A stretch of 36,152 nucleotides of DNA from Candidatus Cloacimonadota bacterium (lineage in GTDB: Bacteria; Cloacimonadota; Cloacimonadia; Cloacimonadales; TCS61), in the NCBI GenBank assembly GCA_018400535.1, contig JAGYMQ010000059.1, forward strand, positions 1-36,152. The letters run 5' to 3'. Below the pieces are notes generated by a model. The model ran no database searches and was not told where the DNA came from. It saw nothing but the letters and a program-made list of their open reading frames with translations. Made by a program: the position numbers and the translations under genes. How positions within the stretch are numbered: position 1 is the first letter of the stretch; every line of letters begins with the position of its first letter. Positions 6,545 through 35,978 of this stretch are shown piece by piece.

Positions 6545-6613
6545 GCTTACCTCCACCAAAAATTTTGCAACATTTGTTCCAATAAATCATAGAACTAAAA
6601 AAATATCAGGAGA

Positions 6614-7390: not shown

Positions 7391-7467
7391 GCGCTCGTAG
7401 CTCAATTGGATAGAGCATCTGACTTCGGATCAGAGGGTTGAGGGTTCGAATCCTTCCGGGCGTGCCA
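7391..7467 (+). tRNA. tRNA-Arg (anticodon UCG)
   Basis: 77-nt tRNA with encoded CCA. The acceptor stem is GCGCTCG/CGGGCGT (with G-U pairs at the end and in the middle), discriminator G. The D arm contains AGCTCAATTGGATAGAGC. The anticodon stem TCTGA/TCAGA encloses loop CTTCGGA, anticodon TCG, which decodes CGA and probably other CGN arginine codons. The T arm is GAGGG-TTCGAAT-CCTTC. A run of seven T directly follows CCA and could help end transcription. Confidence 0.96.
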
Positions 7468-16548: not shown

Positions 16549-19500
16549 TTAATCGGCTTTAACTGCTGTGATGCAATAGAATTTTTTCTCAGCCGAAACA
16601 GCTTCACTCCAGGTGGTGCTGGTAACTTCTGCTTCGAAATCCCAGTTTTCCATAACTGCGCCGGGATCTGTAGATGAATAGACCTTGTAGGAATCGGCAT
16701 CACTCACGCTATCCCAGTTCAAAATAATATTACCTCCGGAAATATCTATCGTCAGATTAGCTGGAGCCGAAGGTGGAAGAACAGCATTTGTAGTGAAGGT
16801 TAGTTCATTACCATAAATGGTTCCCACATCATTTGTTGCGTAGGCTCTCACATAATAGAATGTATCCGGTGTTAGATCGGTAAGATCACTGGTGAAGGTA
16901 CCGATTTCGCTACCGTCTGTTGTGTGATCGTCTGTTAGATCGGGATCTCCGGTAGTATTCCAGCAAACCCCACGGGCAATTACCGAGCTTCCACCATCGC
17001 CTGTAACTTCTCCACCACCAATTGCAGTCGTAGAAGTTATGTTGGAGAGCGTTGCGGTTGTAACGATCGGCAGTGTGATGCCTGTTCCACTCACAGCTAC
17101 GTTCTCGGTTACTGCGCTTGTGCTGCCATGAGAAATATCTCCGCTATAAGTGGATTGTGTACTAGGATTGAAGCGTACATAGATCGTTGTTGTCGGGATC
17201 GAACCTGCCGTGGGTGAGAGGATTATCTGTGAAGCAAAATCACGGTTGTTCCCTTTTTTATTAACAATTTCATCTGATTCTGTAGTTAAAGAGATCTCAA
17301 AATCTGCCGGTGCATCGATCGTAATATCATCGATCAGGTATTCGCCCGAAACAGTGTAATACTGAACGGTCGAGTAAGTTCCAACTTCCACATCGCCAAA
17401 ATCGGGAAGGGATGAAGTGGAAACAAAGATCTGCGGTGTGAATGTTGTGAATGTGATTTCCATTCCATAACCTGTTCCGAGGGAATTAGTTGCGTAGGCT
17501 CTTACATAATAGGATGTGTTTGGGATCAAGTTTGTTAGGTTGCTGGTAAATTCTCCCAACCCGGTACCGTTTGTTGTGTGATCATCGGCTAGATCGGGAT
17601 CTCCGGTAGTATTCCAGCAAACTCCCCGGGCAGTTACAGCATAACCTCCGTTCGAGATAACAATGCCGCCGGAAGTAGCGGTGGTCGAGGAAATATTGTT
17701 AGCACTGTAAGTCATCACAACCGGCTCGGAAACACCTGAACCTGTGAGTGCGATCAATTCATCGCTACCGGAAGCGTTGTGTGTGATGATGATATTCCCG
17801 TTGTAAGTTTGAGCGTTCAAAGGTTGGAAATTTACATCGAAGGTTTGGATATAACCCGAATCTATATTGTAGGCGAGTACATTTCTTTGAGATCGATCTT
17901 TACTTTTGATGCTTTTTTCTGTGATGGATTCTGTAACCGTATATCCGACAGGACTGGTTATCGATCCGGAAAGTGGCATCGTTCCCAGGTTTTCAATCGT
18001 AAAGTATGAAGTTGAATCATTTCCAACTATTACTTCACCAAAATCGATCGAAGATGGCAATATCGAGATCGAAGGTGTACCGATGGTAAGTGTAACATTG
18101 ATATTTTCAGCGGGTTGCTGGTAGTCATTACTGTTCAATATGATATTCGCAAAATAGATACCTTCGGCAAGACCGGTTCCGTCAAATTCCACATCGATAT
18201 CATGAGAAGCAGCACCGGGAGATAACGTATCCATCAGGAAATCACTACCATCGAGGCTCAGCCATAAATAGGAACTTTCGCTACCTGTTATTTCCACATC
18301 GTCGATGCAGATCCCATTTCCCCAGAGATTATTGAATACCCTGAAAGCTATCTGAATATCCTGCCCGTAATAGGAAGCAAGGTACTGTGTTTCTTCAATG
18401 TAGCTTTGAGAGTAACTGTTTTGACCACAGGTATCTATGAAAGTCCAGGTCGTGCCGTCGGTACTAACTTCTATCCCGAAGCTTCCACCATAATAGGGGG
18501 GATCGTAACTTCGGATCCAATAAGATAACTCGCAATCATAAGTTGCGGTGAAAACAGGTGAGATCAACCGGGCATCTTCCACTTCCCAATAATTTGCTTC
18601 GGCACAAAGGCTGCCCCAATGAGGATAGAGTGAACTTTGTTCCCAGTCACCGCTGCCGGAAATGATCTCTGTTGTCCAACCTGTTACTACGAGAGAATCT
18701 TCGAAACTTGTTTCTTCCAGGGTAAGTGTGTCGGCATCGGGATATTGCACATATGCCTGGTAATTCAGATCGATATTTCCTACATTATCGATTGTGAAAA
18801 TTTCTGTAGCTGAGCTGTCTTCCCGAATAAGAGCTGAAAGTGAATCGGGTGAATGAACCAGATCTGCTGCAATTCCGCTACCTGTAAGATCAAGATCATC
18901 CGAACCACCGGGAGCGTTATGAGTTATTACAATCGAACCATCGTATGATTGTGGTGCATCTGGTGCAAAAGAAACGATATAATAGCGAGACATACCGGAC
19001 GAGATCGAAAAACTAAGAGTATCACGATTTGCTCCCAGCTTTTCGCGAATAAATCTACGAGGAGAATTTCCGGTATTTTCTACGAGCTCGTAAACATTGT
19101 AACCAGCTGGGATATCCATTTCTCCCTCCAGATCTCCCCAGCCAGTATTGGTAATCGTTAGAGAAGAATCACTCGAAGCCCCCACAGCAAGATCGCCAAA
19201 ATCTATCGTATTAGGATCGAGTGAAATTCCCGGAGTCCCAACAATAAAGCTAACCGGAACAGACATATTCGCTAATTGGGGATCGTTACTCATGAACATA
19301 ATATCAGCCATATATTCACCATCTGGTAGACCGGTCGCATCGAAGCCGAGATCGATCTGATCGGCAGCACCACCAACCGGGATACTGCCCTGAGTTACAG
19401 CATTTCCATCGAAACTAAGCCAGGTATAATCGGGACTGGGATCTCCAACTATTTGAACATCATCCAGAAAAACTCCATGGGCGTAACTATTGTTGTATGC

Positions 19501-22500
19501 TCTGAAAGCGATCAGGATCGATTGACCACTGTAGGATGCCAGAGACAGGAATTTTCTTTGATAATGATCGCTCAGCTCATCTTGTGAATAATTATCTATT
19601 GTTGTCCAGTTTAGGCTGTCTGTAGAAACTTCCACTGCAAAATCTCCTCCGGTTGAGTATATGTCATTTTGTTTGATCCAGTAGGTTAGGATGCAATCGT
19701 CGGTTGCTGTAAAATAGGGAGTGATCAATCTGGCATCATCTAAACTCCAGGGGCTTGCTTCTGCGGCACAACTGCCACTGTGTGCTCCCCAACAGGCTTG
19801 AGACCAAGTTCCGTAGCCACTGATAACTTGTGTACTCCAACCATAAGGTGGCACATAGGTTTCGAAGCTGGAGCTTAAGATACTATCGCGTATCATTGTA
19901 GAATATCGTGCATATGCAAGGTAATCTAACTCCAGGTTACCGATATTGGAAACTGTCATCGTTTGTGTAGAGGTTTGACCGGTAAGTAGATTTTCTTCAA
20001 AATAGAGTGGATCGACATCTAAGCCTGCTCCTACACCGGAACCGATTAATACTACAGTTTCATCTGGACCGGAAGCATTGTGGGTGATAGTTATAGTTCC
20101 ATCGTAATTCTGACGTTGATCGGGATGGAACATGACCTGGTAATCCATAAGGTCATCACCGGGGATATTAAAGGAAAGGGTGTTCCTGCCATTCTGGGAA
20201 GTCGAGTTCCCGGTGAAATATTTTTCACCATTTTCTGTTCTTCCGAATTCACTGATCGTGTAACCATAAGGTGTGCTTATATTTCCAACTAGTGCCTGCC
20301 CACCGGCATTGAAGATATTCAACCATTCTGTGCTATCCTGATCGACGATGATATCACCATAGATCAGAGAATCGGGTGAAACATCGATCTCGGGTGGCGG
20401 CGGTTGAATACCGTTTCCTTCCACAGGGAGATATTCATTGGATCCTCCGGCATTATGGGTGATCACAACATTACCGGCAAAAGTTTGTACAGTGTCTGGT
20501 TCGAAAGTTACATAATACCAGTTGGTATTTCCACCTTCTACCGAATAAGTTATTGTATTATCGGTATTGCTTAAAGGTTTTTTACTGTTATCCGAATAGG
20601 AACCGACTGTAAAACCGGCAGGTGAGAGCAGTAGTCCCGTGAGTGTGCCACCTCCGGTGTTCTCGATGGTGAAATCGAGAGTGGATGTTTGGCCAACAGC
20701 TACATCCCCGAAGGAGAGAGAATCTGGTGAAACAGCAATATCGGGAGCTAAAGTCCAATCTACTCTGTTATGTGGATCGTATTCATAGGAACTGCCGGCA
20801 AAATCTCCGAAAGCACCAACGAGTTCGAGATGACCAAGATTAAAACTTTTATAAACATTATACATGCTGGAGGAATTATTATCGAATTCTGTGTTGGATA
20901 TCAGAAGATCCTGATCATTTTCGATCCTGAGCAGTGAACCACCGGAAATTCCTTTCCAGAACAGGCAGTTATTGAAACCGGTGTTGCCATCTCCGATCGC
21001 TGCACCGTTTTTAACATACACACCATCGGTTGCCATATACTCGAAAATTCCATATTCAGCATCGATCGCACCACCACTCTGGATAGTAAGGTCGTAATAG
21101 TGTCCACTGCTTTTTCGTGTGATCTTTGCTTCATCTCCATCTGAGCCATAAACTCTTAGCATTCCACCACTGTTAACATTAAGTTCTGCATCATCTCCGA
21201 TCTTTAAGATCGCACCTGCATCGACTTCTAATATTCCTCCGCTATTTACACTAACATCTGTATCGCAGATAAAATTACTGCCATTCAGATCGAGAGTTCC
21301 GTTTTCCACCACCAGACTTCCATCGTTGAGTGCATACATATCGGATAGCATTGTGAGAGAAGCAGCACGTGTGTTATCGGATAGGGTTTTATTTATGGTT
21401 ACATCCCGGAAAACAACGCTGCCGGTTTTGTGATAGGTATGATCTCCGGTTCCCATGAACTTGATATGTCCCTGAGGAACCCACCAGCCACCGCTTGCAA
21501 CTTCAAAATCCCCATAAAATTCCTGGGTTGTAACATCGGCATCTTTCCAGGTACCGTCTATAACCGTAAAATCTCCCAGCACTTTTGCGTCGCCGTTTAA
21601 AATAACGCAATCGTAATCGGGATTAGTTCCGGAATTATCCACCACAACATTGTAAAAATCCATGGAGCCATGCATGGCAGTTACAGTCTGATTATCTGTG
21701 CCGTTAAAAGTGACAGTAGAAAGCCCTTCCACAAAACCATAATCCCAGGGATAACCTGTTGTATTCTGATTCGACCAGTTACCGGAAATATTAATGAATG
21801 AAGGATCGCTAAGACATGCATATAGATTGGTATCTTCCGAGATCACCAGGTCATTCTCGATATTCAAGGTAGAATTTGGACTCAACCTTAAAGAGCAATC
21901 GTTTATATCGACATCATTTTCCACAGTTACGGTTATCCCATCATCGATAAACAGATAAGTGAATTGACTACCGTTTTTATCGATCTCCAGGTTATAAAAA
22001 GTTTCATCTGTAAGAAGATATGAATCCGAATCATTTATAAATCTTACTGTACCATTACCTTCTGCAAATCCCACAGCTCCGCGTTGATTCGACCAATCTC
22101 CACCTACTTTCAACAAGCCATCATCCGGGTCGATAAATCCACCTGTTCCTATGGTAACGGAGTTATTCACAGTGATCTCATTTGCATATCCCATTAATTT
22201 TCCACCATATACGCCCAGATCATTATTCACGACAAGATCACCATAGAGCATGCAACCTCTGAGAGTTTCGGATTTCGATATTACTAGATCGTGAAAATAA
22301 TTTCCATTTGTTACTTCGATATTCGACCACTGGCTACCAATAAATTGTACTGATCCGCCATTTGGTTGGAAAGCATTTGCTACTGTCGCCTGTAAACCTC
22401 TGCCTAAATAGATATCGGCATTATCGATATTAGGATTGGTCGTGAAACGAACATTCTCATTCCAGATCACAAATTGCCCTTCAAGCAGATTTAAAGTTCC

Positions 22501-25500
22501 GGCAAAGGTGAGATAATTTCCTGTATAAGATTTATGCGAAATAAAATCACCACCATCGATCGTGAGAACTCCATTGCTGTTTAATTGGAAATCTTCATTA
22601 GTTCTGAACATACCACCGAAGATCTCGATCAATCCATTGGATTCGACATCTGCATTTATCTCGATAAGTCCATAATCTGATTTGAATTCTGCGTTATTGT
22701 CGATATACAACTCTCCATTCAATTCAAGGTTATCTGCTCTAAACTCGTTATCGGCATTTAGTGCTAGATCACCATCCACGACCATATAAGCAGAATAGTA
22801 CATTTCTCTTGTTGTATATCCACCCGATTTATCCAGGATAACATTACCAAATTTTGCATTGTCAAATTCATTGATAAATATCTCCGAGATATTACTGCCG
22901 ATAAATCGTACCGTATTACCCGTTCCCAGAGTTGCATTAGTTCCTTCTTCAAAACGCCAGTCTCGACCCAATTTGATCTCACCGGCAGAGATTAGATCAT
23001 AAGAGCCATCCTGCCAGATAACATCTGTTGTAACTTCCAGTAGATCTGCAGGATCGCTCATTTTCAAAGTACCGGCGATCTCAACTTTATTTGCATCGAC
23101 GCTATGACCATTCAGATCAAACACTCCACCATTTACATCTAATGTGCCATTTAGTTCCAGATCTTCCTGCAGGTTAGCATAACCGGATCGTGTGTTTTCA
23201 GTTGAACGGGAATTACGTCTTGATGTGGGAACCGGTTCTGCTGGAGTATTTTTGTTCCTTGCGGAATTATCCGATAGAGTTTTATCGATGGTGATGTTAT
23301 GGAATGTGTTACCCCAGCCGAAATCGAGATCAACATCATCAGAACCATAGAGAAGTACTGTTCCTCCGCTGGGATCAAAATCGTGACGATCTGATGAGAA
23401 ACTGCCATTCATTTTAATCGTGCCACCTGTGATAACATGGGAAAAAAGATGCAGATCGTCAAAGTGTATTCCCCAATCCTTCACATCGAGAGTTCCTCCT
23501 TCCATGTAAAGGTAAGTATCGTATGTGTGTGCAAAATAACAATCGTCAGCACCTCCGTGAATATTAAATTCTCCGTTGTAGATAATTATGCTGCCATTAA
23601 CGTCCGGATAGTGACTGGCATCCTGGTGCAGGTCGATCTGCCCATTGTTCAAAATATAGGTTCCCACAATGCTGTTATCTGCCAGATCGAGTGCTTCGAA
23701 CTGTCCTCCCTGAACCTGTAACATACCAGAATTCCAATTATAGGAATCACAGATCACATTAGCTCCCGATGGAATGATCAGTTTACCGGAAGATTTTTGT
23801 AGGATAAGATCATTAAAAGTTTCGCCATAGCAATACTGATCTGAAGTTCCATTGAAAGTAACCGAGCCGGTACTTTCCAGAAAGCCCAGCAGTGGTCCAA
23901 TATTGTTTGTCCAATCTCCGGTTATATCGATATCATAACCATTAGATTTCAATCCACCGGGATCGATTGTCAGGTCACCCTGAATGGAGATATCGCAGTT
24001 CATTTCCACAAGAGCGGAAGAATTGATCTCCAAGTTGTTAAAATGATCTCCTGCAAAGGAATTAATCTCCTGCAATATACCTGAGAAGAAGAAAGTAGCA
24101 TGATTCAACCACAGGTTCCCATTACAGGTAAGATCTCCTTTCAGAACGATGTCGTTTGTTTCGTATTCATTAACAACTGTTGAATTCGCTCCGATGATAA
24201 GGTTTCCACCAATAACGAAGGGATCGACAAGTTCTCCGGATATCTCTACTTGAGCGGTGTTTTTATCGATCTCCAGGTCATTTACATAGGAATCATCATC
24301 ATAACAACTGATCACGGCATCGGAACTACCGATCAATTTAATCAATCCCTTATCCATTTGCACATCGGCACCATAGGAAAAGGCAAAGTGACTCAAGCAG
24401 TTGATCAAAGCCCCATCGGCAGAGATATCCACCGAAGATCCATTATGCCATGATAGAGTACCGTAAACATTCAGTACGGAATTATCCTGATTCATAACCA
24501 ACTCACCGGCAATACTTGCATAATCATAAGCAGATAATGATTTTCCCTGGATGGTCAATTGTGCTCCGGATTCGATAGTAAGTTCATTACAGAAGGCATT
24601 GTATTGATAGATCTTGGGTGAATAAGTAGTACCGGCAGGAATGGTTACATCATCACTTGAACCGGGAACATCATTACTGTACCAGTTATCTGGATCGTTC
24701 CAGTTATTGGAAACATCACCTTCCCAGATGTATGGTAACCAGCCGGCTTCGAAAGTATATGGTAGATAGTAATCTGATGTAACCATACAATAAATTATTT
24801 CTTCGGAATTTACAGGTTGATTGAAGTCTATCGAAACAAAACCAGAAGAATTTGTTAGACCTGTACCGAATGTACCACTCTCTGTATATGCAGAAACTCG
24901 CAATCCGGCAATGGCAGGATTAACTACAACGTCCAGATGATCCATGCCAATAGAGGGATATGTGATGACATTTACATAATTAATATCGTTCAGATTATCA
25001 GTTGGCCAAATTTTTAGTGTAGGATCACCGAATAAGTTTAACTCATAATACTGCCATCGCAAAGCTGAATTACTATGCCCACTGTTATATTTTGAATATT
25101 CCTGCATACGACCGAGTTGATATATAGGATTTGATGATTTGCACATAGCGTGGAAAAAATAGCGATCAAAGTGTTGACCTGAACCAACTAACCCAAATCT
25201 GGAATTACCAACAACTCCTAGAACACCTTTTTCGTGTGTAGTGAATTTTTCTGTCATACAATCATAAGAATAATAAGTGCCGTCTGTTAAACGATTATCA
25301 AATGAAGAACCGTAACATGTTTGGGAATAGACGAAATAGAAGTTATGATTCGTACCGTCTGATGTTAATTGCTCGACAGAATTGTTATCTACTCTAAATC
25401 CCATATAGCTACCTACATTTCCATGTCCCAGATGATTCATAACATTTGTACCAGCATTCATCTTATTGATTAAATCTGCAACCGGCCAAGAACTATCCGG

Positions 25501-26856
25501 GTATGTGTGAGCATATTGAAGTTGACAAGTAAAACCATCATCGACCAGACCGGCAGTCGTGTAACCTTCGTAAGAACCACCTAAGCGGATTTGTTCCTTA
25601 TGTTCATCTCCGCACCAACCATCCCACATTTTTTCTCCGACCATAATACCTTTTTTGTTATCAGATTCTACTGGTGTTTTTTGATACATAATCTGTTTAT
25701 TCAATGCATTGGCAAATTCGCTGCTAGAATCAGCACAAATTCGTCCAATAAAAACTTCACTTAAAAAATCTGCTTCAGTGATATCTCCAAAATCGGGATC
25801 ATTTACATCATATTCACCCCACATAGAGTCATTATCGACATTCCAATCGGGACCCGAACCTGTACCGACTCTATCCAACGCAGCATAATACATATCTGCC
25901 GGGACGTCATCATCACTGTAATGAATTGGTTCTGGATCTGCATTTGCCCAATAATGGCCAAACAATCCTCGATGTGGTATATCTTCAACATCTCCAGCAA
26001 GAATAACATATTCGGTACCATTATTTTGATAATAATCACGAATACATAATCTTATTTCATCCTGATCATCATAACCAGTATAAGTTGAATAAATATCTTC
26101 CACCGTAACTATTAAAGTGTTATAACCTTGTAGTTTTTTGAATTTTACAAACTCAGTGAGATCATTTTCAAAATAATCTGTAGTAATAATCAGTAGGTTA
26201 ATATCATAATCTTCTCTCGTGATGTTTTGTATAGGATATAAATCCAGGTTTTCAGGATTCTGAACAAATTCCCTAATGGTATTTCTAGTTTTCTCATCAC
26301 TTCTATATAAATCTGTGTAAGCTTTTGAAGCTTCTGTTGTTGATGATGTTCTTATTTTAACTTTCATTTCTGTAAAATAACTTAATTCACCTTTAGCGGG
26401 TATATATTGTACTGGATAAAGATTAAGAATTGCTATGGAATGTCCACGATAATAATTTGTTTCAACAGGTGAATTAACAACTTCCGGATAAACTTTATTC
26501 GAAGAGTAAAGTTCAATGTCTGGTTCGGTGAATTTATACAGATGTGATTGGCTAGTATGAGTTTCATATTGACCAGGATATAACTTGTAATTTTGACCGA
26601 TTATTTGCTTTTTGAATCCGATAACTTCTACCGAAATCGCTTGTTCTTCCGAAGGTAGTAATAATCTTACGGGTTTCATTGGTACAACTGGTTTCTGAGG
26701 TTCATTCATCTCAAAACAATCTAACATTTCAATGTAATCATAACTATCTTTATGTGTTATTGATGGTTCTTCGAAATGAAAAGTTTTTTCGACTAATCTC
26801 CCATTAAGGGCTACTACAAATAATACAAAAAAAAGAAAACATAACTTCTTCTTCAT
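16549..26856 (-). CDS. Giant gingipain-like C25 protease/adhesin (3435 aa)
   Basis: Secreted multidomain protein. Start ATG 26856 (MKKKLCFLFFVLFVVALNG, signal peptide) lies 5 bases after GGAGG; an in-frame ATG at 26868 is not supported by a ribosome site. A C25 propeptide region (about 95-190) precedes a C25 catalytic domain (about 215-660) with His478 in LGHGN and Cys514 in SQTCYGS. An Ig-like domain follows. Residues of about 700-2040 are a beta-helix-like repeat passenger (many GDLTI, NGTLDVNGG strands). Then come four ASH domains (about 2045, 2160, 2542, 2929; motif VSPDSLSFGDVAVGQ) alternating with two cleaved-adhesin/MAM-like domains (about 2327-2470 and 2715-2855), two RGVCWNTTGDPDL/YYVRAYATN modules around another ASH-like domain, and a final Fn3-like domain ending KKFYCITAVKAD. 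There is no PNPFNP sorting domain. The start codon overlaps the upstream receiver stop (ATGA), so translation is probably coupled. Confidence 0.93.
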   Translation of the reverse strand: MKKKLCFLFFVLFVVALNGRLVEKTFHFEEPSITHKDSYDYIEMLDCFEMNEPQKPVVPMKPVRLLLPSEEQAISVEVIGFKKQIIGQNYKLYPGQYETHTSQSHLYKFTEPDIELYSSNKVYPEVVNSPVETNYYRGHSIAILNLYPVQYIPAKGELSYFTEMKVKIRTSSTTEASKAYTDLYRSDEKTRNTIREFVQNPENLDLYPIQNITREDYDINLLIITTDYFENDLTEFVKFKKLQGYNTLIVTVEDIYSTYTGYDDQDEIRLCIRDYYQNNGTEYVILAGDVEDIPHRGLFGHYWANADPEPIHYSDDDVPADMYYAALDRVGTGSGPDWNVDNDSMWGEYDVNDPDFGDITEADFLSEVFIGRICADSSSEFANALNKQIMYQKTPVESDNKKGIMVGEKMWDGWCGDEHKEQIRLGGSYEGYTTAGLVDDGFTCQLQYAHTYPDSSWPVADLINKMNAGTNVMNHLGHGNVGSYMGFRVDNNSVEQLTSDGTNHNFYFVYSQTCYGSSFDNRLTDGTYYSYDCMTEKFTTHEKGVLGVVGNSRFGLVGSGQHFDRYFFHAMCKSSNPIYQLGRMQEYSKYNSGHSNSALRWQYYELNLFGDPTLKIWPTDNLNDINYVNVITYPSIGMDHLDVVVNPAIAGLRVSAYTESGTFGTGLTNSSGFVSIDFNQPVNSEEIIYCMVTSDYYLPYTFEAGWLPYIWEGDVSNNWNDPDNWYSNDVPGSSDDVTIPAGTTYSPKIYQYNAFCNELTIESGAQLTIQGKSLSAYDYASIAGELVMNQDNSVLNVYGTLSWHNGSSVDISADGALINCLSHFAFSYGADVQMDKGLIKLIGSSDAVISCYDDDSYVNDLEIDKNTAQVEISGELVDPFVIGGNLIIGANSTVVNEYETNDIVLKGDLTCNGNLWLNHATFFFSGILQEINSFAGDHFNNLEINSSALVEMNCDISIQGDLTIDPGGLKSNGYDIDITGDWTNNIGPLLGFLESTGSVTFNGTSDQYCYGETFNDLILQKSSGKLIIPSGANVICDSYNWNSGMLQVQGGQFEALDLADNSIVGTYILNNGQIDLHQDASHYPDVNGSIIIYNGEFNIHGGADDCYFAHTYDTYLYMEGGTLDVKDWGIHFDDLHLFSHVITGGTIKMNGSFSSDRHDFDPSGGTVLLYGSDDVDLDFGWGNTFHNITIDKTLSDNSARNKNTPAEPVPTSRRNSRSTENTRSGYANLQEDLELNGTLDVNGGVFDLNGHSVDANKVEIAGTLKMSDPADLLEVTTDVIWQDGSYDLISAGEIKLGRDWRFEEGTNATLGTGNTVRFIGSNISEIFINEFDNAKFGNVILDKSGGYTTREMYYSAYMVVDGDLALNADNEFRADNLELNGELYIDNNAEFKSDYGLIEINADVESNGLIEIFGGMFRTNEDFQLNSNGVLTIDGGDFISHKSYTGNYLTFAGTLNLLEGQFVIWNENVRFTTNPNIDNADIYLGRGLQATVANAFQPNGGSVQFIGSQWSNIEVTNGNYFHDLVISKSETLRGCMLYGDLVVNNDLGVYGGKLMGYANEITVNNSVTIGTGGFIDPDDGLLKVGGDWSNQRGAVGFAEGNGTVRFINDSDSYLLTDETFYNLEIDKNGSQFTYLFIDDGITVTVENDVDINDCSLRLSPNSTLNIENDLVISEDTNLYACLSDPSFINISGNWSNQNTTGYPWDYGFVEGLSTVTFNGTDNQTVTAMHGSMDFYNVVVDNSGTNPDYDCVILNGDAKVLGDFTVIDGTWKDADVTTQEFYGDFEVASGGWWVPQGHIKFMGTGDHTYHKTGSVVFRDVTINKTLSDNTRAASLTMLSDMYALNDGSLVVENGTLDLNGSNFICDTDVSVNSGGILEVDAGAILKIGDDAELNVNSGGMLRVYGSDGDEAKITRKSSGHYYDLTIQSGGAIDAEYGIFEYMATDGVYVKNGAAIGDGNTGFNNCLFWKGISGGSLLRIENDQDLLISNTEFDNNSSSMYNVYKSFNLGHLELVGAFGDFAGSSYEYDPHNRVDWTLAPDIAVSPDSLSFGDVAVGQTSTLDFTIENTGGGTLTGLLLSPAGFTVGSYSDNSKKPLSNTDNTITYSVEGGNTNWYYVTFEPDTVQTFAGNVVITHNAGGSNEYLPVEGNGIQPPPPEIDVSPDSLIYGDIIVDQDSTEWLNIFNAGGQALVGNISTPYGYTISEFGRTENGEKYFTGNSTSQNGRNTLSFNIPGDDLMDYQVMFHPDQRQNYDGTITITHNASGPDETVVLIGSGVGAGLDVDPLYFEENLLTGQTSTQTMTVSNIGNLELDYLAYARYSTMIRDSILSSSFETYVPPYGWSTQVISGYGTWSQACWGAHSGSCAAEASPWSLDDARLITPYFTATDDCILTYWIKQNDIYSTGGDFAVEVSTDSLNWTTIDNYSQDELSDHYQRKFLSLASYSGQSILIAFRAYNNSYAHGVFLDDVQIVGDPSPDYTWLSFDGNAVTQGSIPVGGAADQIDLGFDATGLPDGEYMADIMFMSNDPQLANMSVPVSFIVGTPGISLDPNTIDFGDLAVGASSDSSLTITNTGWGDLEGEMDIPAGYNVYELVENTGNSPRRFIREKLGANRDTLSFSISSGMSRYYIVSFAPDAPQSYDGSIVITHNAPGGSDDLDLTGSGIAADLVHSPDSLSALIREDSSATEIFTIDNVGNIDLNYQAYVQYPDADTLTLEETSFEDSLVVTGWTTEIISGSGDWEQSSLYPHWGSLCAEANYWEVEDARLISPVFTATYDCELSYWIRSYDPPYYGGSFGIEVSTDGTTWTFIDTCGQNSYSQSYIEETQYLASYYGQDIQIAFRVFNNLWGNGICIDDVEITGSESSYLWLSLDGSDFLMDTLSPGAASHDIDVEFDGTGLAEGIYFANIILNSNDYQQPAENINVTLTIGTPSISILPSSIDFGEVIVGNDSTSYFTIENLGTMPLSGSITSPVGYTVTESITEKSIKSKDRSQRNVLAYNIDSGYIQTFDVNFQPLNAQTYNGNIIITHNASGSDELIALTGSGVSEPVVMTYSANNISSTTATSGGIVISNGGYAVTARGVCWNTTGDPDLADDHTTNGTGLGEFTSNLTNLIPNTSYYVRAYATNSLGTGYGMEITFTTFTPQIFVSTSSLPDFGDVEVGTYSTVQYYTVSGEYLIDDITIDAPADFEISLTTESDEIVNKKGNNRDFASQIILSPTAGSIPTTTIYVRFNPSTQSTYSGDISHGSTSAVTENVAVSGTGITLPIVTTATLSNITSTTAIGGGEVTGDGGSSVIARGVCWNTTGDPDLTDDHTTDGSEIGTFTSDLTDLTPDTFYYVRAYATNDVGTIYGNELTFTTNAVLPPSAPANLTIDISGGNIILNWDSVSDADSYKVYSSTDPGAVMENWDFEAEVTSTTWSEAVSAEKKFYCITAVKAD
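16797..17720 (-). repeat. Near-duplicate segments within the giant protease gene
   Basis: Segments at about 16797-17055 and 17444-17720 encode homologous RGVCWNTTGDPDL/VRAYATN modules and are alike at DNA level too: GATCGGGATCTCCGGTAG and most flanking bases match. This implies a fairly recent internal duplication or gene conversion. Confidence 0.7.
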
Positions 26857-27224
26857 TTTATCCTCCATGATATTTTTTTCAATGCCTGTTTCACATCGTT
26901 GTGCCGAAAGGGTTTACTAATAAAATCGATCACACCTTTCTGGCTGGCTAATTTTTCTATGTTCACATTTTTATTTCCTGAGATCATGATCACCTGGATA
27001 TGAGGATAAAGCTTGTTGATATGCTCCAGCACGACGATACCGTCCATTTCCGGCAATGTGAGATCGAGAAAAACGATATCGACGGGATTGTTCTTCAGGA
27101 TCTCGAAAGCGGTGGAAGGTTTGGCTGATACGATCACCTGGTATTTTTTTCTTACCAGGAATTCACTGAGCTCTTCACAAACCCTCTCTTCATCATCCAG
27201 GATCAGGATAGTGGTATCAAACAC
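26853..27224 (-). CDS. Receiver-only response regulator coupled to giant protease
   Basis: 123-residue CheY-like receiver with no output domain. GTG start at 27224, 5 bases after GAGG. The acidic pocket is DDEE near residue 10, the phosphoacceptor is Asp54 (VFLDLTLPEMDG) and the conserved Lys lies in ISKPF. The sequence resembles the receiver of the NtrC-type regulator just upstream: both share E-ELSEFL near residue 20 and KPFRHxDVK near the end, suggesting duplication. The last codons (TGG AGG ATA AAA) contain the ribosome site of the giant protease, and TGA overlaps its ATG. It is probably transcribed from the sigma-54-like promoter at 27280-27295. It could relay phosphate to a non-DNA target or drain phosphate from the NtrC partner; this is inference. 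Confidence 0.92.
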   Translation of the reverse strand: MFDTTILILDDEERVCEELSEFLVRKKYQVIVSAKPSTAFEILKNNPVDIVFLDLTLPEMDGIVVLEHINKLYPHIQVIMISGNKNVNIEKLASQKGVIDFISKPFRHNDVKQALKKISWRIK

Positions 27225-27474: not shown

Positions 27475-28836
27475 TCAGATGTTATATTTTTTCATTCTCC
27501 TTATCAGGGAGTGGCGGGAGATGCCTAACAACTCAGAAGCTTTTGTCTGGTTTTGATCTGCTTTGCTAAGGGCGGCTATGATCAATTCTCTCTCATTTTG
27601 CTCCAGGTTAAAACTTCGATGCTCATTTTTCGCAGATGCTTGACGGGTACAGTTCAGAGGAAAGTGATCTTTTGCCAGAATTTGTGAATCACAGATGATC
27701 AGAGCAAGTTCTGTGAGGTTTTTCAGCTCACGAACATTTCCCGGGAAATCGTAGTTCTGTAATTCGGGGATCAAGGCAGGATCGATATCGGGTGGGGTAC
27801 GATTGATCTTCTGCGAAAAGTTTTTTACGAAATGTTTCAGCAAAGGTTCGATGTCGTCTGGTCGTTCTCTTAGCGGTGGGATCTCGATCAGCAGCGTGTT
27901 GAGCCTATGGTAGAGATCGAGCCGGAAATCGTTTGAATCTACCAGTTTTTCCAGGTTATGATTGGTAGCTGCTACGATCCGAACATCCACGGTGAATTCC
28001 TTGTCTTCACCGATCCTTTTGAGCTTTTTTTCTTCCAGGACTCGTAGTAATTTTGCCTGGAGATTAACCGGCATATCGGCTATTTCATCCAGAAAAAGCG
28101 TACCACCATCGGTTAGTTCAAAAAAGCCCTTTTTATCTTGTGATGCTCCTGTGAAAGATCCTTTTTTGTGTCCGAAGAATTCACTTTCCAACAGGGTTTC
28201 GGGAATAGCAGAGCAATTCACCGGGAAGAAATTTTCGTCTTTTCTGCTGCTGGCAAAATGGATTATCCGGGCGATTATCTCTTTACCGGTTCCACTTTCC
28301 CCCGTGATCAACACATTCACGTCTTTGTATTGTGCTGCATTAAGAGCCAGATCGAGCACTGCTTTGATCGCTGTACTTTCCCCGATGAATTCTCGCTCGA
28401 TCTTATTTTCCAATTGCATGGAAATGAGTGAATTTCTGTCTGATGCATATTGAAGTTCCTTCTGCATTTTGATGAATTTACCGGTACGTTCGATGGCGAT
28501 CTTAACATCCAGATGCCTGAATGGTTTCTTTAGAAAATCGATCGCACCTAATCGCATCGATTCGATCACCGTGTCCATATCTCCATGACCGGTCATCATG
28601 ATCACTTCCAGGTTGGGATATTTTACTTTCACTCTTTCCAGGAATTCCAGACCATTCGTATCTTTCAGGCGGATATCCAGGATCAAAATATCTATCGCTT
28701 TATTTGCCAGTAGATCGTTCGCCCTGGCGATATGGTTGGCAGAATAAGCCACAAAACCATTCCTTTGCAGAAATTCACTCAGTTCATCGGTAGTCCTTTT
28801 TTCATCATCGAAAACTAAAATTTGTAAATTATTCAT
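27475..28836 (-). CDS. NtrC-family sigma-54 response regulator, partner of TPR kinase
   Basis: 453 residues. Receiver 1-120 with Asp10/Asp11, phosphoacceptor Asp54 (LILDIRL) and Lys in LKKPF. AAA+ sigma-54 activation domain from about 150: Walker A GESGTGKE (179-186), sigma-54 contact loop GSFTGA (226-231, Ser for the usual Ala), Walker B TLFLDE (Asp250-Glu251), and FPGNVRELKN near 370. C-terminal Fis-type HTH NQTKASELLGISRHSLIRRM. All parts needed to open sigma-54 promoters are present. The ATG overlaps the end of the kinase gene by 8 bp, so the two are cotranscribed and probably translationally coupled. Likely target: the sigma-54-like promoter at 27280-27295 just downstream of this gene. 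Confidence 0.95.
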   Translation of the reverse strand: MNNLQILVFDDEKRTTDELSEFLQRNGFVAYSANHIARANDLLANKAIDILILDIRLKDTNGLEFLERVKVKYPNLEVIMMTGHGDMDTVIESMRLGAIDFLKKPFRHLDVKIAIERTGKFIKMQKELQYASDRNSLISMQLENKIEREFIGESTAIKAVLDLALNAAQYKDVNVLITGESGTGKEIIARIIHFASSRKDENFFPVNCSAIPETLLESEFFGHKKGSFTGASQDKKGFFELTDGGTLFLDEIADMPVNLQAKLLRVLEEKKLKRIGEDKEFTVDVRIVAATNHNLEKLVDSNDFRLDLYHRLNTLLIEIPPLRERPDDIEPLLKHFVKNFSQKINRTPPDIDPALIPELQNYDFPGNVRELKNLTELALIICDSQILAKDHFPLNCTRQASAKNEHRSFNLEQNERELIIAALSKADQNQTKASELLGISRHSLIRRMKKYNI

Positions 28837-30928
28837 TTGTATCCTTTTTTAATTTGATCAAAAATATCGTACCTTTACCAACTTCACTTTGCACCGTTAT
28901 GATCCCGTTCATGTCGGAAACTATACCGGAAGCGATAGAAAGACCCAAACCGGTGCCTTTATCGGTTTTCTTGGTCGTGAAGAACGGATCGAAGATCCTG
29001 TTCAGATCCTGCTCGGGTATTCCTGTTCCGTTATCTGCAAATTCCAGGCACACATATTCCTGCTGCTGATAGGTTTTGACCTGCAGTATTTTCCGGAAAT
29101 CTTCATCCTCTTTTTCCGCCTGCTTTTCTACAGCATATTTTCCGTTGGAGAGCAGGATAAGAACAACCTGTTCAAAGCGGTAAATGTTTCCCAGAACCTT
29201 ACAAAGTTTCGGATACAGATCTACTTCCAGATCTATCCGATGATTGGCATATTGCTCTTTGATCATATTCAGGGCACTGGTAACGCTTCGGTTTATGTCG
29301 AAGGGAGTTTTTTCCTCTTCTGTCTGTTTGCGTGAAAAGGTTCGGATGTGATCTACGATGCGTTTCATACGTTCGATATCTTCAAAGATCCGTTGGGTTT
29401 TCTGTTGAATATAGTTCTTGTCGGCATCGTCTTCTTCCAGAGCAAGCGACATATTATCCATGGAAAAAGCGATGCTATGTAAGGGTTGGTTGATCTCGTG
29501 GGCTATTCCGGCAGCCAGTTCTCCCAGGGCGGCAAGACGTGATTGTTCCACAGCTTTCTGTTCCTGGGCACGGCGTTTTGATACTTCTGTTTCCACTCTC
29601 GTTTCCAAATTTTTATTCAGATCGTTCAATTCTCTCTGGATAACCTTTCTTTTCTCGATCTCTATCTTGGCTCGATGATAGGAAAAATAGATGATAAGTG
29701 CCAGAGCCAGAATTAAGATGAATCCTATAATGAAGGTAAACTTCAAAATTCTATTACGTCGCAGTTGAAGTTCACGGATCTGGGAGTTTTTCTTGAGTAT
29801 CTCGATCTCACGCTCTTTCTTGGTAGTTTCGTATTTGGTCTGGATTTCCTGAATAGCTGTTATCTTTTCCTGGTTGAAAAGAGTATCGTTTAATGCTATG
29901 TAGGAGCTAAGGTAATCGTAGGCAAGTCTGTAATTACCGATTTGTTCGTTGTGTAGTGCCAGATCTCGATAGCATTGCAGTATATGCTGTTTCGAACCGA
30001 GCTGTTTTGCCAGTTCCAGGCTTTTCAAAAAATATTTTTCGGATAGTTCCAGATTACCCAAAATATTTTGGACAGATGCGATATTACCTAAGGTGTGCAT
30101 TTCTCCTCTCGTATCTTTCAGGTTGCGTTTGATCTGTAAGGATCTTGTCATATGATCGAGAGCTTTTTGATAATCTTTTTGCAGATAATACAAGTAACCG
30201 ATGTTGTTCAGATTAAAAGATATCCATTCGTCGTTCTCCATTTCTTTGTTCAATTTAAGGGCTTCAAAATAGAGTTCCAGTGCCTTTTGATATTTTTCCT
30301 GAAACATGTAGATCATAGCTATGTTATTATAGGAGCCGGCTATTCCTCTTTTATAGTTTAATTGTTTTCTTATTTGGAGTGCAGATTCATAATACTCCAG
30401 AGCTTTATCATATTCTTTATTGAATTTGTGTGTACTACCGATCCGGTTCAAGATCAAAGCAATATTAAGCGAGTCTCCTGTCTGCTCAAATATCTGTAAT
30501 GCACGATTATATAGCTCATTAGCTTTCAGATAATTCCCTTGCGATTGATTTACATACCCCATCTCCGATATTACTTCGGCAATATTACTTCTATCCTGTT
30601 GCTGCCGGAAAAGATCTAATGCGAGCTCAAAATTTTTTAGAGCTGCCTCGTAGTTATCCTCACGAAGGTACAATTTTCCCAATCGTTTATAATATGAGGA
30701 AATAGATCCATCCGATTCGCCTTGTTCCGTCAGGAAAATTATTTCTTTCAGGTGATCGATCGCTTTTTGATATTCATGGGATCCGGAATATTCTTTCACC
30801 AGTTCATTCAAGATGGGGATCTTTTCTTTTCCTTTTAAGCTGGATAAAACAGAATTCAGACTGTCGATACCTGTATTGGCATGTAAAAATTGCAAAAAGA
30901 GAAAACCTATGAATAACATCTTTTTCAA
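28829..30928 (-). CDS. Sensor histidine kinase with periplasmic TPR domain
   Basis: 699 residues. TTG start at 30928, 6 bases after GGGAG, giving MKKMLFIGFLFLQFLHA, a signal peptide or first membrane anchor. Residues of about 20-360 contain about eight TPRs (SYNNIAMIYMFQEKYQKALELYFEALKLNK), placed in the periplasm by the topology. A coiled coil (KYETTKKEREIEILKKNSQ) precedes TM about 393-414. A second coiled coil leads to the kinase core with phosphoacceptor His477 in GIAHEINQPLHS, an N box LLSNGKYAVE, G1 DNGTGI and G2 GTGLGLSIASG. This is the NtrB/ZraS-like class that pairs with NtrC-type regulators, and its 8-bp overlap with one supports that. The TPRs probably sense a periplasmic protein or peptide; the signal is unknown. 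Confidence 0.94.
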   Translation of the reverse strand: MKKMLFIGFLFLQFLHANTGIDSLNSVLSSLKGKEKIPILNELVKEYSGSHEYQKAIDHLKEIIFLTEQGESDGSISSYYKRLGKLYLREDNYEAALKNFELALDLFRQQQDRSNIAEVISEMGYVNQSQGNYLKANELYNRALQIFEQTGDSLNIALILNRIGSTHKFNKEYDKALEYYESALQIRKQLNYKRGIAGSYNNIAMIYMFQEKYQKALELYFEALKLNKEMENDEWISFNLNNIGYLYYLQKDYQKALDHMTRSLQIKRNLKDTRGEMHTLGNIASVQNILGNLELSEKYFLKSLELAKQLGSKQHILQCYRDLALHNEQIGNYRLAYDYLSSYIALNDTLFNQEKITAIQEIQTKYETTKKEREIEILKKNSQIRELQLRRNRILKFTFIIGFILILALALIIYFSYHRAKIEIEKRKVIQRELNDLNKNLETRVETEVSKRRAQEQKAVEQSRLAALGELAAGIAHEINQPLHSIAFSMDNMSLALEEDDADKNYIQQKTQRIFEDIERMKRIVDHIRTFSRKQTEEEKTPFDINRSVTSALNMIKEQYANHRIDLEVDLYPKLCKVLGNIYRFEQVVLILLSNGKYAVEKQAEKEDEDFRKILQVKTYQQQEYVCLEFADNGTGIPEQDLNRIFDPFFTTKKTDKGTGLGLSIASGIVSDMNGIITVQSEVGKGTIFLIKLKKDTNE

Positions 30929-31648: not shown

Positions 31649-33055
31649 TCAGAGTTTCTCTATATCGTATTTTTTCATTTTTTTGTACAGAGTGGTTCGA
31701 TCCAGACCGATAGATTCTGCTGTTTTGCCGATACGACCATGATTTTTGCGGAGATGGTGCTCGATAAACATTTTCTCGAAGTTCTGTATGGATCCATAAA
31801 GGTTGTTATTTTCTAAAAGTCTGTTATATGTTTCTCGTTGTGCTTCTCCAGAACCTTCACTCAGCCGATGGTTATGCTGGATGTGCTCCTCGAATTCCTG
31901 CAGGAGAATGTGATTGTCGATCTTATTATGAAATTCGGCTGTAAACCGGCAGAAATTTTTAAGTTCGCGTACATTTCCCGGGAAGCTATAGGATTCTAAC
32001 CGGGTTTCTATTTCCTTCAGGTCGATATCCAGAGATTTATTGAACTCGCGGCTGTAATCGATCAGGAATTCTTCCATAAGATAGGGAATATCGCTGGCTC
32101 GCTTTCTGAGAGGAGGTAAATGGATATTGCAGTTAGCAAAGCGGAAATAGAGATCTTTGCGAAATTCACCTTTACCGATCATCTCCCGCAGATCCCGATT
32201 AGTAGCAGAGATTATCCTGGTATCTATCTCTTTTGTTACTCCGCCACTGCCAATGATCGGTATTTTTTTCTCATCGATCACTTTAAGTAACTTTGCCTGA
32301 TCTTCCAAACTCATGTTGGAAATTTCATCGATGAACAGTGTTCCCTTATTGGCAGCCTCGAAATAACCCTTTTTATCGTAATTGGCTCCGGTGAAAGCTC
32401 CTTTTTTATGACCGAACAATTCGGATTCCAATAATGAACGTGGCACAGATTTTATATCGATAGATTTAAAGGGCATATTTTTCCTGGGAGAATTCTGGTG
32501 CAAAAGTTCTGCAACAAGTCCCTTGCCGGTTCCTGTTTCTCCGGTGATCAAGAGATTCATGTTCGAACGGGCAAATTTTCCGATCTCATCTTTTAATTTA
32601 AGCATGGTTGGATGTTTACCGTAAAGAACAGAATCTATGGATTGTTTTTTTAGGTCATGGATCTCTGCTTCGCGGTTTTTCAAAGAAAGAGCCTGGCTGA
32701 TATCTGCCAGGAATTTGATACGATTGAAGTTTTCTCCTTTCTCGTTAAAGTTAACCGCTCCCAACTTCATTGCTTCCACTACTTCTGTTTTGGTAGCTTC
32801 ACTGGAGAGAACGATCACCTTTGCCTGGAAATCCTGTTTGGATTGTAGTTGGCGAAAAACTTCGGTCCCATTTAATTCACTGTTCTTCAGAACAATGTCC
32901 AGCAGGATCAGATCGGGCTCAAATTGCTCATATATTTGGAAGAAATCTGTACTATTCAATGCGATCCGTACTTCATAACCTTCCTGCTCGAGCATTTTTT
33001 TATAATACTGTGCGATGCGCTCTACATCTTCTAATAAGATAATCTTACCTTTCAT
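31649..33055 (-). CDS. Second NtrC-family sigma-54 response regulator
   Basis: 468 residues. ATG 33055 lies 5 bases after GAGG. The receiver has the acidic pair Glu9-Asp10, phosphoacceptor Asp53 (LILLDIVL) and Lys in FNEKGENF. The loop after Asp53 carries a small insert (KNSELNG) and the usual KPF is replaced, so its switch may differ from standard receivers. AAA+ domain: Walker A GETGTGKG, intact GAFTGA, Walker B TLFIDE, and FPGNVRELKN. A linker (HRLSEGSGEAQRETYNRL) leads to Fis-type HTH GRIGKTAESIGLDRTTLYKKM. It is the likely partner of the sensor kinase encoded upstream, from which it is separated by a 310-bp tandem-repeat array. Confidence 0.94.
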   Translation of the reverse strand: MKGKIILLEDVERIAQYYKKMLEQEGYEVRIALNSTDFFQIYEQFEPDLILLDIVLKNSELNGTEVFRQLQSKQDFQAKVIVLSSEATKTEVVEAMKLGAVNFNEKGENFNRIKFLADISQALSLKNREAEIHDLKKQSIDSVLYGKHPTMLKLKDEIGKFARSNMNLLITGETGTGKGLVAELLHQNSPRKNMPFKSIDIKSVPRSLLESELFGHKKGAFTGANYDKKGYFEAANKGTLFIDEISNMSLEDQAKLLKVIDEKKIPIIGSGGVTKEIDTRIISATNRDLREMIGKGEFRKDLYFRFANCNIHLPPLRKRASDIPYLMEEFLIDYSREFNKSLDIDLKEIETRLESYSFPGNVRELKNFCRFTAEFHNKIDNHILLQEFEEHIQHNHRLSEGSGEAQRETYNRLLENNNLYGSIQNFEKMFIEHHLRKNHGRIGKTAESIGLDRTTLYKKMKKYDIEKL

Positions 33056-33082
33056 GCTTTCCTCTTACTTAAATTCCATAGC

Positions 33083-33367
33083 ATTAGAACTTCCGAATGT
33101 CCCGATTTTGACGGGTCTTCGGAATGTTCGATTTTTACCATCATAACATTCGGAAGAGCTACGCACATTCCGAAGTTATTAGAATTTCCAAATGTCCCGG
33201 CTTGGACGGGTCTTCGGAATGTTCGATTTTTATCAGCATAACATTCGGAAGAGCTACGCACATTCCGAAGTTATTAGAACTTCCTAATGTCCCGGTTTCG
33301 ACGGGTCTTCGGAATGTTCGATTATTACCAGCGTAACATTCGGAAGAGCTACGCACATTCCGAAGTT
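33083..33367. repeat. Three tandem 95-bp palindromic repeats
   Basis: Units begin at 33083, 33178 and 33273; the period is exactly 95 bp and identity is high. Each contains CTTCCGAATGT, then CCCG/CGGG around a T-rich loop, CTTCGGAATGT, ACATTCGGAAG and ACATTCCGAAG: two interleaved inverted repeats in A-B-A'-B' order. The unit ends form an imperfect terminal inverted repeat. The array fills the gap between the sensor kinase and its regulator, and its right end supplies the last two bases of the kinase stop codon. REP/BIME- or MITE-like; no transposase is nearby. The period is not a multiple of three, so it is unlikely to encode protein. Confidence 0.92.
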
Positions 33368-35978
33368 ATTCCAGCTTTTTCGGTATTCTCATAATTACTT
33401 CAACAATACCGTCTTTAGATTCAATAGCAAGTTCACCATTAAAATTCTCGATGATCTTACGGGTGATCTGAATGCCCACACCGCTGCCACCGGAACTTTC
33501 CGAGAACAGACCGGATTGGATTTTCGAGAGGATATTCTCAGAAATTTTGCCCGGATTGGAGATCGAGATCTGATAAGTATTTTTGTGCACATCCAGTTCG
33601 ATCTCTATTTCACTATCCGGCTCGGAATATTTCATTGCGTTGTTCAGCAGGTTGCGGATCGCTATCTGGAAAAGATTCTCATCGATATCCACATAGAACG
33701 ATTCTCTCTCTGGTTCGAAAAAGATCCTGGAAAACTGTGGATGGTTGGCATATTCCATGATCAGATTCTCCAGCAGCATGATGAGATCTTTGCGTTTTAT
33801 GTTCAGCTCGAATAACCTGGAAAAGCCGGAGAGCAATAATGTTTTCTTGTAGATCCCTTTCATCGTGGGTCTTATCTGTTCGATCAACTTTTCTGCTGTT
33901 TTCTGCTTGGCTCTGTCTTTTTCGTCCATTTCCTGGTCTGCCAGTTGCAAGTTTACCAGATGTAACTGATTTTTTATGTCATGGGCGATCCTTTGGACGA
34001 GAAAGAGCTCATTCTGGGTATTCAAACGGAATAACCTGATCTGCATGACCGGCAATTTCTTCTGATAGATCTCTTTGAAATCTGTGGTCAGGTCTTTCAA
34101 CAGGTAGAAGAATTTTTGCTGGGAACGGGAAATATTTCGGGGAAATCTGTAAAAACTCAATTTTCCGTAAATCCGCCAGAAATAGAACAAACCAAAAAAA
34201 TTATAGAGCACAGCATAGCTGGATTCTCCCGAAACAAAGGGCAGGAAAAGGATCTGACGGAAGTAGTAATAGATCAGGATCACAAGTAATTCAAATAATA
34301 ACAACAGCAAATAAAAAGGATTAATTCTAAAATTGGATGTTAAAGTTACCTTTTTTAAATAACCGGTATTATCATTAATATAGTAAATTGAGTTTCCTTG
34401 AGTTTCGATGTCTTCATAATTGATCTCTTCCGAAATAGAATAGATTATATTCAATTTATCATCGATCACCTGGAGAGGAAACCAGATCATATCATAATTT
34501 TTATTATCCATCGATAATGCATCTTCCTGGTAATATCGATACCTGTGATTTGCGGAACGACTTATTGTGTTCTCTAATTGTAAATCCTTTGATAAAGTTA
34601 ATTTCTGCAATTTTTCGCTGTTTTTATTCATGCATACAATATTATCATCAACAGCAAACAGGTGCAGCAAAATATTATAATCTATATCGGTGCTAATTAC
34701 ACTATTTGTGGTCAGATCAAGATATTGCAGTTTCTTGATGTATTGATTCTTTGACCATAAACCTAGTACTACTCTTTTTTCTTGAGGAAGAGGTAAAAAT
34801 TTATAGTGATAGAATCCGATTAAGTCGTTACGAACCATTACTTTTTCATTATAGATCTTTTTGAAGCTGCCATCTTTTTCCAATATTGTGAAAAAACAAT
34901 GCATCGAATCATCGATATAGTCTTTGGACAATTTATCGATAGGCATTTCATAGCAGGGTGAATGAGTGGAAAGCAAAATGTCTTGTTCTCCATCATTATC
35001 GATGTCGATTATCTGTAGTTCTTTGATCTCTGTTATGAAGTCTTTCTCCCAGATAATTTCTGCATTTTCCACATCGTAAGCAATAAATTGATCGGGTAAC
35101 CATCGATCGTTTCGGATGAGTAGAAGTAAGTCTGCCTTTCCATCTTCGTTAACATCGAGCTCTCCAAATATGTTTACCCAGCTATACATCAACTGATCGA
35201 ATTTATATTGATCAAATTTTTTCATATAAAAATGTCTGCGTCGAAAATATTGGATGATCCTATAGATATCTTCATAAGTAAATTTTCTGCCGGTCAATTG
35301 TGATAAATTCTCAGCTATATCATTATAAAAGCGAATATTCAAAGAATCCAGCTCCAGCTTCAAACAATCGAGCACAAGAGAATCATAAATAGCCGGATTA
35401 AACACCAGTCGATGAGTGTTATCTTCTTTGATGATTCTACATCTATCTTCATAAGAAATCTTTTCATTAACAGAGTATTTTTGGAAAACAGTTTCCTTTA
35501 TAGTCAACAAAGAATCGGTGGTTATCTTTGCTAAGTTGTAATTTTTAATATGCTTAACCTCGGTCCGGATGGATTTTTTATTATCGTGTGTTTCAAACAG
35601 CGAATAATTATGTTCATCATCTATTAAAACAGTATAAGACACATTTCTAAAATCGGAATTATAAAATATAGTACCATATGGTTGATATACTCCGGCAAAT
35701 TCCTTTTGTGTTAATGCCAGATCTTCACTATCAAGATAATAAAAGCTTGTAGCGTTTGACTCTGCTCTTCTCGAAAGATATAAAAGGTCATTGTGATCAT
35801 TGTTTTCTAATAGTGTAAAAGCGGAAGTTTGATTATAGGTTTCACTATCACTAATTATCTCACGATCGATCAGTTTGTTCTTTATTACAAATAGATATAG
35901 ATTTATCCCGATAAGTAAAACAATAATGAAATATCGAAAAACAGAATGCTTCTTCCTTATCAAACCGATATCGTGCAA
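33366..35978 (-). CDS. Membrane sensor histidine kinase with FG-GAP-like ectodomain
   Basis: 870 residues. TTG start at 35978, 5 bases after AAGGAG; there is no ATG near. TM1 about 15-33 (YFIIVLLIGINLYLFVI), then an ectodomain of about 520 residues with two calcium-type loops of FG-GAP/integrin-like propellers (DVNEDGKADLLLL and DIDNDGEQDILLS). TM2 lies near 555-580 (FYLLLLLFELLVILIYYY) with a possible further hydrophobic stretch. The kinase core has phosphoacceptor His666 (RIAHDIKNQL), N box IRNLLNNAMKYS and G2 box GGSGVGIQI. The usual G1 aspartate motif is replaced by SNPGKIS, so nucleotide binding may be unusual. The stop codon abuts the 95-bp repeat array, beyond which lies the likely partner regulator. 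Confidence 0.9.
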   Translation of the reverse strand: MHDIGLIRKKHSVFRYFIIVLLIGINLYLFVIKNKLIDREIISDSETYNQTSAFTLLENNDHNDLLYLSRRAESNATSFYYLDSEDLALTQKEFAGVYQPYGTIFYNSDFRNVSYTVLIDDEHNYSLFETHDNKKSIRTEVKHIKNYNLAKITTDSLLTIKETVFQKYSVNEKISYEDRCRIIKEDNTHRLVFNPAIYDSLVLDCLKLELDSLNIRFYNDIAENLSQLTGRKFTYEDIYRIIQYFRRRHFYMKKFDQYKFDQLMYSWVNIFGELDVNEDGKADLLLLIRNDRWLPDQFIAYDVENAEIIWEKDFITEIKELQIIDIDNDGEQDILLSTHSPCYEMPIDKLSKDYIDDSMHCFFTILEKDGSFKKIYNEKVMVRNDLIGFYHYKFLPLPQEKRVVLGLWSKNQYIKKLQYLDLTTNSVISTDIDYNILLHLFAVDDNIVCMNKNSEKLQKLTLSKDLQLENTISRSANHRYRYYQEDALSMDNKNYDMIWFPLQVIDDKLNIIYSISEEINYEDIETQGNSIYYINDNTGYLKKVTLTSNFRINPFYLLLLLFELLVILIYYYFRQILFLPFVSGESSYAVLYNFFGLFYFWRIYGKLSFYRFPRNISRSQQKFFYLLKDLTTDFKEIYQKKLPVMQIRLFRLNTQNELFLVQRIAHDIKNQLHLVNLQLADQEMDEKDRAKQKTAEKLIEQIRPTMKGIYKKTLLLSGFSRLFELNIKRKDLIMLLENLIMEYANHPQFSRIFFEPERESFYVDIDENLFQIAIRNLLNNAMKYSEPDSEIEIELDVHKNTYQISISNPGKISENILSKIQSGLFSESSGGSGVGIQITRKIIENFNGELAIESKDGIVEVIMRIPKKLE

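Follow-up and report, generated by a model that had tools for sequence, protein, structure and literature searches.

The repeats considered here resemble several described systems. In the E. coli REPtrons, which combine y, z1, and z2 REPs and BIMEs with a TnpA-REP/RAYT, the REPs are imperfect hairpins whose stem contains an irregular zone. They form inverted doublets whose partners are not identical, occur in tandem copies, and are mostly intergenic, and the transposase gene lies between its own repeats (PMC8266576, PMC2817692). The REPINs of Pseudomonas fluorescens SBW25 are inverted REP doublets of ~100 bp that act as the unit, are linked to a RAYT, and also form tandem arrays (PMC3116915). 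TnpA-Y1 subclass 2.6, from Bacteroidetes, comprises transposases of ~179 aa with N-H-x-H and YIH[QN]NP motifs, flanked by nonstandard hairpins ("atypical secondary structures") with copies elsewhere in the genome (PMC6006769). The RAYT/REP papers that we consulted cover mainly Proteobacteria, Bacteroidetes, and Cyanobacteria, and in the literature that we searched, we found no description of REPs in Cloacimonadota.

The DNA studied here (the window) is a whole stretch of 36,152 nucleotides, contig C59 of a Candidatus Cloacimonadota genome of 2.62 Mb in 146 contigs. Between a histidine kinase gene and an NtrC-type regulator gene, the window carries an array that we interpret with high confidence as three REP doublets (BIME/REPIN type) in tandem, members of a Cloacimonadota repeat family linked to RAYTs. 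The features are as follows, with positions counted from the first base of the window.

31649 to 33055, minus strand: NtrC-type response regulator gene with receiver, sigma-54 interaction, and Fis-type HTH domains, downstream of the array.
33056 to 33082, minus strand: remaining 27-bp regulator leader, outside the array, with the likely ribosome-binding site GAGGAAA.
33083 to 33367, no strand assigned: three 95-bp units in tandem; a unit consists of a REP doublet (90 bp) and the linker ATTAG (5 bp).
33088 to 33128, plus strand: unit 1 hairpin 1, reading AAC / core TTCCGAA / TGT / CCCG stem-loop CGGG / TC / core TTCGGAA / TGTT.
33145 to 33177, minus strand: unit 1 hairpin 2, inverted, reading core TTCGGAA / TGT / GCGTAGC mini-hairpin (C-GNA-G) / TC / core TTCCGAA / TGTT.
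33183 to 33272, no strand assigned: unit 2 doublet, in which the first box has decayed to TTTCCAAATGT.
33278 to 33367, no strand assigned: unit 3 doublet, in which the first box has decayed to CTTCCTAATGT; two bases of the kinase stop codon come from the end of this doublet.
33366 to 35978, minus strand: histidine kinase gene with an intact HATPase_c domain, transcriptionally upstream of the array.

The three repeats of the preliminary description were recovered as units of exactly 95 bp (33083-33177, 33178-33272, and 33273-33367) with 92 to 94% mutual identity and a TRF score of 499, and the window holds no other tandem array. Since the units differ pairwise at 6 to 7 positions, they are not copies of one read. 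Exact 11-bp boxes occur 10 times in the window, against ~0.03 expected from base composition. The boxes of each unit follow the order A (CTTCCGAATGT), B (CTTCGGAATGT), A', B'. This order, which had been read from the sequence at the outset, is real, but because units 2 and 3 carry a mutated box A, the match of A with A' is perfect in unit 1 only. The inner CCCG/CGGG stem is present in the first half of the unit, and between A' and B' we found another inner hairpin, which is shorter and reads GCGTAGC on the minus strand. Elsewhere in the window, the minus strand encodes a predicted secreted protein of 3439 aa that combines a C25 (gingipain-type) peptidase domain with many Ig-like/ASH domains (16549-26868), as well as an M14 zinc carboxypeptidase whose C terminus weakly matches type IX secretion sorting domains (3758-6559).

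The elements are dispersed within and between genomes, in line with the suggestion that they might be REP-like and mobile. Diverged full units and half-units lie on ~10 further contigs of the same genome. A single-hairpin search pattern (CTTCSGAATGT-N6-30-CTTCSGAATGT) gave 11 exact matches in this genome and found exact hairpins in 16 of 40 family genomes (our own and 15 of the other 39), at 1 to 25 per genome, while the reversed pattern, used as the control, gave zero matches in all 40. Scanning one genome for each of 84,980 species yielded 54 DNA stretches, and Cloacimonadota MAGs were the source of nearly all of them. Matches in two other MAGs, one of Bacteroidales (L081) and one of Ruminococcus (L090), were set aside as unrelated, though this is unproven; the first is an array with a 21-bp period, and the second has the same spacing. 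Dispersed copies are 85 to 110 bp long, and tandem units occur in one further stretch (L084) besides the window. Most classifiable hairpins (66 of 75) are intergenic, and their gene contexts (10 convergent, 9 divergent, and 47 codirectional) show no clear departure from background. Integron attC arrays were rejected as an identity for the repeats, whose copies lie scattered across contigs and whose boxes lack the nesting seen in attC.

Two side observations came from these searches. The MAG CSMAG_2426 (L069, L074, and other JAUWNO01 contigs) is labeled Armatimonadota, but the label looks wrong because the MAG matches G022, which is in the same family as the Cloacimonadota genome of the window. 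Another repeat, CCTGAAATCCTAACCCCCCGATGAAATGTTCAACAAATTGAATTT, is shared by the ends of contigs C43 (L023 from ~880) and C26 (L033 from ~870) of our genome; it probably represents another mobile element, located at assembly breaks.

We compared 57 distinct full units and found each to consist of two hairpins in inverted orientation. Read in its own orientation, each hairpin is NAAC-(core of 7)-TGT-(inner stem)-TC-(complementary core of 7)-TGT. As a T usually follows the final TGT, the AAC can also pair with GTT, with one T bulged. The inner stem varies in sequence yet stays paired, at positions 1, 2, and 4 in 79/88, 82/88, and 51/55 hairpins, respectively, against shuffle means of 37, 40, and 25. 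Most eight-base heads are C-GNA-G mini-hairpins plus a T (GCGAAGCT, GCGTAGCT, and ACGAAGTT), and the units of the window carry the GCGTAGC form. GNA loops closed by G-C pairs, e.g., d(GCGAAGC), are exceptionally stable in DNA (PMC4686876). Such heads favor single-stranded DNA as the form in which the element would act.

The preliminary description had taken the interleaved arms as the meaningful structure, forming alternative stems or a pseudoknot. The pairing across copies does not support this. All 14 core pairs are kept by local hairpins (A with B and A' with B') in 41 of the 57 units, by interleaved pairing (A with A' and B with B') in just 6, and by one long nested hairpin in none, these counts being drawn from related copies and not from independent events. 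In the commonest unit, the second core pair is ATCGGAA/TTCCGAT in place of TTCGGAA/TTCCGAA; this change is compensatory, preserving the local hairpin while disrupting the interleaved pairing. By DNA folding energy, the local pair lies within 2 kcal/mol of the minimum in 41/57 units; single units of the window are able to fold in the nested form, so that folding energy alone does not exclude it. The conserved structure is two separate, local, inverted hairpins.

The one-base difference between the boxes follows a rule. The box centers read C,G|G,C or its mirror in 47/57 units and never the equal-order arrangement (0/57); in the remaining 10, a center is mutated or ambiguous. The opposite order (C..G with G..C) holds whether the long hairpin or the mini-hairpin comes first. 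Part of this rule could reflect common descent of whole units. With the one base pair swapped, each local hairpin would still pair perfectly, but the long fold would be spoiled and the two strands could be told apart. We offer only as a doubtful proposal that the rule is functional, a one-base-pair strand code for a RAYT that reads hairpins without GTAG.

Y1/HuH transposases (PF01797) were present in all nine family genomes tested. In G022, a RAYT of 178 aa (L069:748-1284, minus strand) lies between full units that come within ~20 bp of each of its ends. Its nearest homologue, 72% identical and from another genus (G053), has two units on each side. The repeats are thus linked to an HuH RAYT in two genomes, which bears out the idea of a REP-associated transposase; in our own genome, none was detected as cognate (best score, 27 bits), nor was one in most carrier genomes. 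In these genomes, the RAYT as mobilizer is therefore putative. Contigs often break near these repeats, so that for our genome, loss in assembly is indistinguishable from true absence. As candidate cognate transposases, we rejected the Y1 genes of our genome on contigs C96, C70, and C55, which had no boxes in the flanks examined, and the RAYTs of G007, G008, G044, G049, and G010, with no full units of this repeat family beside those examined.

The residues N54-H55-x-H57 and Y115-x-H117-x-N119-P120 are invariant in 21 RAYT proteins. NF047646, the NCBI model for REP-associated tyrosine transposases, matches 21/21 relatives, with the G022 protein itself below the NCBIfam curated cutoff, and the RAYT profile matches the solved TnpA-REP 4er8 (3.2e-9). 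On either side of homologues at ~40 to 50% identity lie hairpins of different sequence. Examples are CTTCCGAACGG/CTTCGGAACGG in G021, CCATTCGCAAGG/CCATTGCGAAGG in G040, and near-identical ACCTTCCGATCTTT/AAAGATCGGAAGGT hairpins at 570-620 and 1260-1310 in G003 (L209, G003:C171), and a G007 RAYT is flanked by a AACCTTGAAAGTGC array. On contig C73 of G007 (L205), a RAYT lies between long arrays (1250-1470 and 2080-2330) of an unrelated repeat, AACCTTGAAAGTGCTAATAAATGATAGCCCTGAAAAGC..., implying several independent RAYT/repeat pairs in this Cloacimonadota family.

The repeats belong to the REP/BIME-RAYT systems in the broad sense; they are for the most part familiar in kind but vary in hairpin design. 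They depart from textbook REPs in their 5' foot, in the many C-GNA-G heads, and in the opposite core order of the two hairpins of a unit. The likeness to the REPtrons covers the imperfect hairpins, the inverted and tandem doublets, the intergenic placement, and the transposase between its repeats. However, GTAG or GTGG (GT[AG]G) was not found at the 5' foot of the hairpins, which is NAAC in nearly all units. Copy number is low (1 to 25 exact hairpins per draft genome versus hundreds), and, as noted above, most carriers show no detected cognate RAYT. The Pseudomonas REPINs, similar in size and arrangement, are symmetric and form one long hairpin, whereas each half of a Cloacimonadota unit is its own hairpin. 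The units thus match neither the canonical GTAG REP nor the symmetric REPIN. Judged by motif, the nearest described group appears to be TnpA-Y1 subclass 2.6, which differs in phylum and in having NH[LIV]H and WQ where the G022 protein has NHYH and FE.

At the locus itself, the array abuts the kinase stop codon, as first reported, and indeed contributes to it, since both A's of the TAA (33368-33366, minus strand) come from the last repeat unit. The claim that it fills the leader of the NtrC gene holds for most of the leader, but the 27 bp before the regulator ATG (at 33055), including GAGGAAA, are left outside. The gap between the two genes is 310 bp, of which 285 are array. We examined five orthologous kinase-regulator pairs with context; the contig of the nearest orthologue (G008) ends inside the regulator gene, so this is not a matched empty-site comparison from a close relative. 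In two pairs with complete context (G015 and G005, where the regulator is 51% identical), the kinase gene overlaps at its end with the start of the regulator gene, and in a third (G019), only a few bases separate them. In the other two (G045 and G007), the genes are ~100 bp apart without these boxes. The array was found in none of the five. In the window, it parts sensor and regulator genes whose counterparts overlap or lie almost end to end in three of these pairs. A second sensor-regulator pair lies close downstream in the window (27475-30928, minus strand), a TPR histidine kinase and an NtrC-type regulator whose genes overlap with no repeats between them.

This position, exactly between kinase and regulator genes, is what speaks for a regulatory RNA of the operon, in which the leader would form alternative stems or a pseudoknot and set the kinase-to-regulator ratio. 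The RNA of the array is also much more structured than shuffled sequences (z = −6.0). However, the same element adjoins many unrelated genes in many genomes, the interleaved pairing on which such a switch would draw is broken in most copies, and the orthologous pairs lack the element. No terminator-like site (including rho-independent) or promoter-like site was found in the array, and an Rfam search of the window gave no match to it, the sole match being a tRNA at 7391-7464. We regard such a regulatory role as very unlikely. Least credible is a MITE of an ordinary DDE transposon moved as double-stranded DNA, with A and B' as terminal inverted repeats: the outer boxes are near-perfect inverted repeats at the unit ends and the short elements are dispersed, but the sole transposase that we found flanked by the repeats on each side is a Y1/HuH RAYT, the inner stems show hairpin covariation, which a double-strand mechanism does not require of its terminal repeats, and no target-site duplication was evident in copies inspected by eye.

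Taken together, these are hairpin elements probably spread by a single-strand DNA transposase. By analogy with E. coli TnpA-REP (PMC8266576), the RAYT would recognize one hairpin as single-stranded DNA, cut it, and rejoin it, and this strand-specific cutting and joining would spread the doublets into intergenic DNA. Tandem units would then arise by local duplication. Insertion at this site may have fixed where the kinase reading frame ends and moved the kinase and regulator genes apart, and this separation could have uncoupled the translation of the two genes or weakened its coupling. Strong hairpins left at the 3' end of the kinase mRNA might also alter mRNA ends. We hold these last effects at low confidence.

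Our analysis adds an uncultured phylum, Cloacimonadota, to the RAYT/REP systems and points to several RAYT lineages within it, each between its own hairpins. These lineages offer natural experiments on how RAYTs read hairpins that lack a GTAG foot. The locus in the window is also an example of an operon in which closely spaced sensor and regulator genes are split by a REP array.
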